Part shown: positions 28,671 through 30,337 of the stretch, piece after piece
Position numbering within the stretch: the stretch's first letter is position 1
How the letters are laid out: every line of letters begins with the position of its first letter
DNA from: Acidimicrobiales bacterium
Lineage (GTDB): Bacteria > Actinomycetota > Acidimicrobiia > Acidimicrobiales > AC-9
Direction of reading: 5' to 3'
DNA: 32,517 nt
NCBI GenBank assembly: GCA_036491125.1
Contig: DASXCO010000169.1
Coordinates: 1-32,517 of the forward strand
The notes under the pieces: generated by a model
Seen by the model: the letters and a program-made list of their open reading frames with translations, nothing else
What the model was told of the DNA's origin: nothing
Database searches by the model: none
Position numbers and translations under genes: made by a program

Positions 28671-30323
28671 TCAGCGAGCCGGCCGAGCCGTGTGGTGCTG
28701 GCGCTCGGATACGCGGCGAGCCTCCGCACGGCGGGCGGCCTCGAGGCGCCCGAGGCCGTTGTCGGCCTGGTCGTCGTGATCGACGAAGCGCATCATCTGG
28801 GCCACGGCGTGATGGCCGGCTTGCTCGGCGATGAGGCGGTGCATCTCGCGGGCCACGGTCCGGTAGGCAGGGTGCCCCTGGGAGCCCGACCGGAGCTCCA
28901 GGATGTGCATGGCCTCGCGAGCGTTCATCTGCATCACGTAGCGCACCCGGAAGGCGAGGGCCACGGCATACGGAGCCTGGTCCGGGAACTGTGGGGCCAG
29001 GGCGTCGTGCAGGGTCGCCGACCGGACCATCGATTCCTCGAACGCCGGCGCCACCCCCGCCTCGACGGCGGCCTCGGGCAGGTCGTACCCAAGGCTGGTG
29101 TCGAGCGGCTGCCACTCGATGGTGAGCATGCGATGCCGCTGGAGGTCCCGAAAGGCTCCGTAGTCCGACACCACGTCGAAGCGGTAGGACGTGCGTTCCA
29201 GCGCCCGTCCGGGACGGTGACGACGGTTCGTGCGATCGCCCACGTAGGCCTGTACCACCTGGCGCCGCTCGTCAGCAGACATCCGGGCGACCCGCTCGGC
29301 CAGCTCGGCCTCCCCCAGGTCGGTGTGTGGGTACAGCATGGCGGCGATGACCTTGTTCTCACCGTCGGGGTCGAAATCCACCAGCGTGACCGGGGGTGGG
29401 GGGTCGCCCATACCCGCTTCGCCCGAGGGGAAGAGCCTGGCCGCAAGGTCGTCCATGGCGGTGCGATTTGCGGCCAGGTAGGCCGACCACTCCCCTCCCC
29501 GATCCGGGCGGTCCACGCGCTTGAGGAAGGACGGGATGGCCTTGCGAAGCTCCTCGAGCATGAGCTCGGCGTAGTAGCGGGCCTCCGGGAGGGGATGGGC
29601 CCGCATGTGGAGGAGCAGTAGCTCGTAGGACTGGCCGGTGCCGTAGATGCCTACGTTGGACAGCGATCCGGCTGGTAGCAGCCCCCGTAGCGCGTCGAAG
29701 GCCTTGGCCCGGATCGACTGGCGATAGGCCAGGTCGGAGTCGGTGCTGGCCTTCGGGTACTGGCGGGTGATCCAGGCCTGGACCACCGGCAGCAGCGCCG
29801 CATAGGTGTCGAACATCCGGTCCATCTCCCCCACGTAGCGGGCGCCGAGAGGAGACTCGAGGATGGCCGGGTCTCTGAAGTACCGGTAGTGGCCACTGGC
29901 CAGGCGGGAGTCGTAGGCGACATAGCGCGTCGACTGCTCCAGGTAGGCCATGAGCCGGCTCCGCTCGAGGACCTTGGTCAGGAGGTTCGACGCCTGCTCG
30001 CAGGCGAGGTGCACGCCGCCGAGCTGAGCGACCGAGTCGTCGCCGTACTCGAGGAAGATCCGATCGTAGAGTTGCTCGGCCCGACGAAGGCCGACGGTGG
30101 CGTCGACGGTGAGGTCGCCGGTGATGTCCAGATCGCCGACGAACTCGTCCAGGAACAGCCGTCGCAGGCTCTTGGCCGAACGGGAGTACCGGGCGAACAG
30201 CGCTCCCTTCACCACCTCGGGCAGGTTGACAAGGGCGAAGACGGGTCCGTCGATGGTCGTGAAGTAGCGCCGCAGGACGTCGGACTCCTCGTCGCTGAAG
30301 CGCTCCCGGACGTACGGATGCAT
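28671..30323 (-). CDS. Double-length ThyX-like (flavin-dependent thymidylate synthase) protein (550 aa)
   Basis: Two ThyX-fold halves in tandem; ordinary ThyX is about 250 aa. In the first half the signature R-H-R-x7-S-x-R reads RSRLMAYLEQSTR (R121 to R133): only the His is changed, to S122. In the second half RHR is intact (396-398, DLQRHRMLTIEWQPLD) but the S-x-R part is lost. Conversely, the C-terminal ThyX residues are well kept only in the second half (RVRYVMQMNAREAMHILELR and GHPAYRTVAREM), while the first half has TGQSYELLLLHMR. A composite active site is possible. ThyX makes dTMP from dUMP with methylene-tetrahydrofolate, FAD and NADPH. ATG 30323 fits the leaderless rule; ATG 30335 overlaps the -10. 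Confidence 0.85.
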   Translation of the reverse strand: MHPYVRERFSDEESDVLRRYFTTIDGPVFALVNLPEVVKGALFARYSRSAKSLRRLFLDEFVGDLDITGDLTVDATVGLRRAEQLYDRIFLEYGDDSVAQLGGVHLACEQASNLLTKVLERSRLMAYLEQSTRYVAYDSRLASGHYRYFRDPAILESPLGARYVGEMDRMFDTYAALLPVVQAWITRQYPKASTDSDLAYRQSIRAKAFDALRGLLPAGSLSNVGIYGTGQSYELLLLHMRAHPLPEARYYAELMLEELRKAIPSFLKRVDRPDRGGEWSAYLAANRTAMDDLAARLFPSGEAGMGDPPPPVTLVDFDPDGENKVIAAMLYPHTDLGEAELAERVARMSADERRQVVQAYVGDRTNRRHRPGRALERTSYRFDVVSDYGAFRDLQRHRMLTIEWQPLDTSLGYDLPEAAVEAGVAPAFEESMVRSATLHDALAPQFPDQAPYAVALAFRVRYVMQMNAREAMHILELRSGSQGHPAYRTVAREMHRLIAEQAGHHAVAQMMRFVDHDDQADNGLGRLEAARRAEARRVSERQHHTARPAR

Positions 30324-30331
30324 GCGGCGCC

Positions 30332-30337
30332 ACATTA
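30332..30337 (-). promoter_or_regulatory. -10 hexamer TAATGT for the ThyX-like gene
   Basis: On the minus strand TAATGT ends 9 nt before ATG 30323, with no ribosome binding site. It overlaps the alternative ATG 30335. Confidence 0.5.

Follow-up and report, generated by a model that had tools for sequence, protein, structure and literature searches.

ThyX returns tetrahydrofolate (THF), so dihydrofolate reductase (DHFR; FolA) is dispensable to its hosts, as the paper title "Life without dihydrofolate reductase FolA" reflects. In a normal ThyX tetramer, the RHR/R174 surface of a subunit (residue numbers of Thermotoga maritima ThyX, Tm) serves one site and its S88-R90 loop the site of a neighbor. 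Because each subunit gives both surfaces to different sites, the tetramer has four equal sites. Nucleotide binding in the related PolB is divided between two monomers: one gives Phe79, Arg82, His83, Arg86, and Arg193, and its neighbor supplies Glu94', Ser96', Ala97', Arg98', and Arg166' (PMC5003785, in excerpt). In PBCV-1 ThyX, monomer A supplies Gln-75 and Arg-182, whereas Ser-88 and Gln-89 belong to monomer B (PMC3498832, in excerpt). In Mtb ThyX, FAD is held by the RHR of subunit A with help from Ser71 and Arg190 of subunit B, and the backbone of subunit C Gln103 meets the flavin ring (PMC6514825, in excerpt). Each normal ThyX subunit thus plays all roles, at separate sites. Judged by motif spacing, the Tm counterparts are probably R78 for PolB Arg86, R174 for Arg193, and E86, S88, G89, R90, and R147 for the residues of the neighboring monomer; the distance from PolB 166 to 193 equals that from Tm 147 to 174.

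The window, the whole 32,517-nucleotide stretch of DNA analyzed here, encodes two ThyX-like domains in a single chain. Residues are numbered from the start codon at 30335 (554-amino-acid form); the initial annotation used the ATG at 30323 (550 amino acids).

28671 to 30323, minus strand: tandem ThyX gene, 550 amino acids plus stop (the upstream ATG at 30335 would give 554)
29421 to 30335, minus strand: N-terminal ThyX half, residues 1–305, predicted substrate-loop donor (hhalign 98.6% to the ThyX profile)
28767 to 29402, minus strand: C-terminal ThyX half, residues 312–523, predicted RHR/FAD donor (profile alignment and model)

Pfam Thy1 (PF02511) matched two stretches of the protein (E 7.3e-33; 114.4 bits against a cut-off of 24.8) and was the only Pfam family listed for it, with no ThyA domain (PF00303). 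Each half was also compared separately with a ThyX profile, and hhalign returned probabilities of 98.6% for the N-half and 98.5% for the C-half. The tandem of ThyX-like halves described in the initial annotation is therefore a pair of divergent ThyX domains; aligned directly with each other, the halves are almost unrelated (hhalign 6.9%). Against the NCBIfam thyX equivalog TIGR02170, with a cut-off of 87.9 bits, the window protein scored 38.4, five of seven relatives scored 30–71, one Bacillus plasmid form reached 101, and BONAISHI gave no match. A sequence search of the whole protein against solved structures found no ThyX. AlphaFold modeled the full single chain (80 sequences) with pLDDT 82.5 and pTM 0.84, and residues 312–523 of this model aligned with residues 7–218 of T. 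maritima ThyX (3g4a; Z 15.8, rmsd 2.5, 192 residues aligned). The N-half modeled alone was poor (pLDDT 69.1, pTM 0.50): Foldseek gave no match at E 0.001 or better, and the best match of a fold search with this weak model was Mtb ThyX (Z 5.3 over 75 residues). The C-half is thus assigned to the ThyX fold by model and the N-half by profile only.

The motifs of the two halves, from N-terminus to C-terminus, were located as follows.

30180 to 30191, minus strand: R49-Y50-S51-R52 (both S51 and R52 never vary in an alignment of 21 rows)
30024 to 30044, minus strand: GDDSVAQ, equivalent to Tm G52-H53-..-T55-..-E58 (S101 invariant; profile and sequence alignment)
29955 to 29963, minus strand: R125-S126-R127, the lost RHR of the N-half, W-G-R in most relatives (alignment)
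29922 to 29939, minus strand: E133-Q-S135-T-R137-Y138, intact ThyX substrate loop (Tm E86, S88, R90, Y91; alignment)
29685 to 29687, minus strand: R217 (Tm R147), invariant (alignment)
29130 to 29138, minus strand: R400-H401-R402, intact RHR (Tm R78-H79-R80; alignment)
29094 to 29117, minus strand: EWQPLDTS, the lost S-x-R-Y loop of the C-half (alignment)
28917 to 28925, minus strand: N471-A472-R473 (Tm N163, R165; alignment)
28890 to 28892, minus strand: R482 (Tm R174, dUMP activation), invariant (alignment)
28860 to 28880, minus strand: QGHPAYR, with R492 (the R of the canonical AQWEIR motif) invariant (alignment)

The second half reads as first annotated: RHR is kept, S-x-R-Y is gone, and N471-A-R473, L481-R482, and QGHPAYR are present. 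The first half does keep S-x-R (S135-T-R137), but the RSR said to replace its RHR is not typical of the family, which mostly has W-G-R, with W at position 125 in 100/129 and G at position 126 in 123/129 aligned sequences. S51 probably corresponds to Tm S30 of the folate loop. In the core form the Tm H53 position is D99 and the E58 position Q104; the former is H in phage, Bacillus, and Paenibacillus forms. R473 was found in 129/129 core sequences and is W, A, or P in the Bacillus, Paenibacillus, and phage forms.

The 129 tandem proteins comprised 50 from genome searches and stretches and 79 of 81 neighborhood loci, two being dropped for a stop inside the matched range. Nine distant relatives were added, from two phages and seven of ten plasmid records (the three left out were Bacillus licheniformis/paralicheniformis). 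In all 138 proteins, the N-half keeps E133, S135, R137, Y138, and R217, the C-half keeps R400-H401-R402 and R482, and the N-half RHR and C-half loop are lost. RHR-x7-S-x-R never occurs in one stretch of one domain: RHR belongs to the C-half and S-x-R-Y to the N-half. Every protein therefore holds one complete dUMP/FAD catalytic set, with the equivalents of E86, S88, R90, Y91, and R147 in the N-half and of R78, H79, R80, and R174 in the C-half. These nine columns never vary, which rules out a decayed pseudogene; what had been called decay of the halves is instead a division of labor. An alignment of 21 rows (a reduced set plus three further phage forms, Ma-LMM01, Yong MS32, and My-WqHQDG) had 15 invariant columns (A48, S51, R52, S101, E133, S135, R137, R217, P221, R400, H401, R402, L481, R482, and R492), and Y138 was kept in 20 of the rows.

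Equivalents of the side chains that PolB draws from its neighboring monomer (Tm E86, S88, R90, and R147) all fall in the N-half, and those of Arg86 and Arg193 in the C-half. The division of dUMP-pocket residues between the halves is thus the two-monomer split of PolB, which supports the composite site put forward in the initial annotation. Complementarity alone, counted over four units (loop, R147, RHR, and R174), is by our own arithmetic a 1-in-6 coincidence, so its weight rests on the invariance and on the agreement with the split seen in the crystal structure. With an N-half profile, each of the nine distant tandem proteins scored above every canonical ThyX of the test set, whereas a C-half profile did not separate Bacillus and Paenibacillus forms from canonical ThyX; a single fusion event behind the tandem forms is therefore likely, not proven.

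The protein is very probably a true thymidylate synthase in which two fused chains pair into a pseudo-tetramer, two of its sites being composite and two abandoned. Two ThyX domains, fused in one chain, would each have specialized. The C-half would always take the RHR/R174 part, holding FAD and activating dUMP, and the N-half the loop part, with the equivalents of E86, S88, R90, Y91, and R147. Pairing of two chains would then give the pseudo-tetramer, with two complete sites per dimer and the two reciprocal sites lost. What we observe are the complementary invariant residues, the distribution of the tandem as sole synthase, and the near absence of FolA; we infer enzyme activity, the dimer of fused chains, two live sites, and the FAD stoichiometry. 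The chemistry would be that of ThyX, from CH2-THF through reduced flavin to dUMP; since the products would be dTMP and THF, FolA would be dispensable.

It seems unlikely to us that the composite sites are complete within a single chain, as a working pseudo-dimer that needs no pseudo-tetramer. The pTM of 0.84 for the single-chain model would suit such an arrangement, but three subunits contribute to ThyX sites (PMC6514825, in excerpt; PMC11940539) and S101, at the place of a third-subunit residue, is kept.

In favor of the fused-dimer synthase, the N-half of the Bacillus and Paenibacillus plasmid forms, which lacks RHR and R174, also keeps H53, E58, and N-G-R (at the N163-R165 position), and their C-half keeps RH(N)R and R174; H53, E58, and N163-R165 are thus each present once in these forms. 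In the actinobacterial core, D99 stands at the H53 position, and it is the C-half that carries the R165 equivalent. Third-subunit residues are therefore not uniform (D99, Q104, and the R165 equivalent), which counts against the pseudo-tetramer model: FAD-phosphate contacts must differ from those of T. maritima, and the third-subunit role in the core is the least firm part of the model. Several residues that would line the abandoned sites are conserved in the core and vary in phage and Bacillus forms: R127, Y131, Q235, and mostly R245 in the N-half, and W408, Q409, and R473 in the C-half. A speculative and rather doubtful reading of this pattern is that the actinobacterial form has turned these sites into a second ligand pocket, for example one for a regulatory nucleotide; if true, this would make the enzyme an asymmetric and possibly allosteric ThyX.

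The genome from which the window derives (96.42% complete) had Thy1 matches confined to the tandem gene and no match to PF00303 (ThyA), PF00265 (Tdk), or PF01712 (dNK). The second thyA or thyX that the initial annotation had proposed to look for was therefore not found there. The tandem gene was present in 128 of 149 genomes of the class that were at least 90% complete, a few times as contig-end fragments. Thy1 matches occurred in 136/149, these 128 and eight of one family (f79) with single-domain ThyX. ThyA was matched in 16/149. Of these, 13 had no Thy1 match; the other three were the tandem genomes G357, with a full ThyA, G188, with ThyA in two pieces, and G212, with a weak match (5.6e-14), so that 125 of the 128 tandem genomes had no ThyA match. 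No single-domain ThyX was found among the 128 (best Thy1 E 7.9e-28), and the extra Thy1 matches of G305 and G386 are consistent with additional tandem fragments. The 21 genomes lacking the tandem had ThyA (13) or single ThyX (8), and none of the 149 lacked all three.

In a phylum sample of 296 genomes, the tandem profile matched 104, nine of them weakly via single-domain ThyX; of the 95 left, G188, G212, and G124 (partial) had a ThyA match. The finished genome of Acidimicrobium ferrooxidans (2,158,157 bases, PMC3035218; G077) has the tandem and no ThyA match. The tandem thus appears, by these profile searches, to be the only thymidylate synthase in most of the class. On contig C39 of G188, the two separate ThyA pieces lie near a DHFR gene, with the tandem also in the genome; they are possibly a broken acquired copy. 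Weak single Thy1 matches in five genomes (G009, G039, G050, G072, and G154; loci L066–L070) were checked for half-genes. Those in G009, G039, and G050, the three of five read, were not half-genes and encode a different single ThyX of about 300 amino acids, in which THR...SRNSASSRA replaces RHR...S-x-R. In G275 (L065), a 563-amino-acid ORF encodes a single-domain ThyX whose RHR motif and S-x-R loop are separated by an intein-like insert of about 300 residues. Many phylum-sample genomes lacking Thy1 (f29, f31, f35, and others) showed only a short, weak ThyA match, an ORF of about 230 amino acids covering PF00303 positions of about 110–227, perhaps the methanogen-type ThyA. About 5/296 had, by subtraction, neither Thy1 nor ThyA.

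DHFR (PF00186) was found in 11/149 class genomes: 7/13 with ThyA only, 0/8 with single ThyX, and 4/128 with the tandem, namely G357 and G188 (ThyA on the same contig too), G284 (good match), and G303 (weak). Expressed by ThyA content, DHFR occurred in 2/125 tandem genomes lacking a ThyA match versus 9/15 genomes with full or split ThyA (Fisher 5.8e-9, a descriptive value since the genomes are related; neither count includes G212, whose ThyA match is weak). The near absence of DHFR from tandem-only genomes is expected from ThyX chemistry. All six ThyA genomes lacking DHFR belong to one genus (g240: G339, G369, G372, G388, G394, and G406), with full ThyA and no PF00186 match in 6/6, which counts against a strict rule.

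The tandem gene lies in a conserved chromosomal neighborhood: across 81 loci (80 plus one viral contig, many ending early at contig ends), an upstream helicase homolog was present at 67, DUF4193 at 46, and a GNAT gene at 61. Tandem genes also occur in Parabacteroides, Euzebya, Miltoncostaea, Paenibacillus, and Bacillus plasmid records and in jumbo phages or cyanophages. In the jumbo phage Tunturi_5 the gene adjoins dUTPase and dCMP deaminase genes, and on the Euzebya plasmid it adjoins a dCTP deaminase gene. The tandem of Parabacteroides distasonis (Bacteroidota; NZ_OY725790.1, L174) is 45% identical to the window protein and lies about 3 kb from a DHFR gene; its occurrence there suggests horizontal transfer. 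Two MAG records titled Bifidobacterium breve (L119 and L158) carry an Acidimicrobiia-type tandem and are probably mislabeled. A naturally split two-gene form was considered in Vibrio phage Yong, where the match named two features, and rejected, the region being one 461-amino-acid gene.

These distributions bear on whether the protein could have lost thymidylate synthesis and be a flavoprotein of another kind, for instance an NADPH oxidase, a regulator, or an enzyme that methylates a different nucleotide such as UMP. Its score below the thyX equivalog cut-off would allow this, and PolB is a ThyX fold able to methylate UMP (PMC5003785, in excerpt). We consider it improbable, because it would leave 125/128 tandem genomes of the class with no detected synthase, every catalytic residue is kept once, DHFR is nearly absent from those genomes, and dUMP-making genes adjoin the tandem of Tunturi_5 and that of the Euzebya plasmid. 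That the C-half alone is catalytic and the N-half a scaffold or regulator is very improbable: only the C-half has RHR and clearly matches the fold, but it lacks every loop and R217 equivalent, these N-half residues never vary among Actinomycetota, Bacteroidota, Bacillota, and phages, and T. maritima ThyX shows a large decrease with S88A, R90A, or Y91A (PMC8316439, in excerpt).

If the fused-dimer synthase is correct, it would be a clean natural duplication and fusion that split one shared active site between two specialized domains. DNA synthesis requires this enzyme, which seems to be the sole thymidylate synthase across most of its class and to have representatives in other phyla, plasmids, and large phages. 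The tandem separates roles that are hidden in a homotetramer, so ThyX subunit roles and half-of-sites questions would become directly testable. For annotation, genomes that seem to lack thyX by the equivalog model do carry a candidate synthase. Among the matches listed for open-licence full-text literature, judged by title and opening of the abstract, no paper on tandem, fused, or long ThyX was found; H53D together with thymidylate synthase matched no paper, and the excerpts of PMC10733785 and PMC9931769 hold nothing on tandem ThyX.

Among described systems, canonical ThyX/FDTS (PF02511, TIGR02170; T. maritima TM0449, 1o26) has in common with the tandem the fold of the C-half, RHR, the dUMP loop, R147, R174, and no need for FolA. 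Unlike TM0449, the tandem consists of two fused domains, each lacking half of the site, and its C-half is approximately 17% identical. The UMP/dUMP methylase PolB (4p5a, 4p5b) shares the ThyX fold, and its dUMP pocket, formed by two monomers, serves as template for the partition; PolB is a single-domain protein encoded by a polyoxin gene, whereas the tandem gene has its conserved chromosomal neighborhood. Thermus thermophilus Thy1 with an extra C-terminal domain (6j61) is also a longer ThyX, but its chain of 270 residues is not a double ThyX. The long form is already catalogued, under the name "FAD-dependent thymidylate synthase" and as PHROG 36506, "thymidylate synthase" (491 positions), a family of tandem length whose layout is that of the window protein. 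In a viral-structure library, the full model paired with the Microcystis phage Ma-LMM01 thymidylate synthase over 534 columns with an rmsd of 14.8, which means that the halves are either arranged differently or poorly placed with respect to each other. This phage gene has been described as a ThyX homolog (PMC5780444, in excerpt); its product, gp020 (491 amino acids), is phage-borne and very distant (20% identity in the Foldseek alignment), but it has the tandem layout and the same partition of residues as the window protein.
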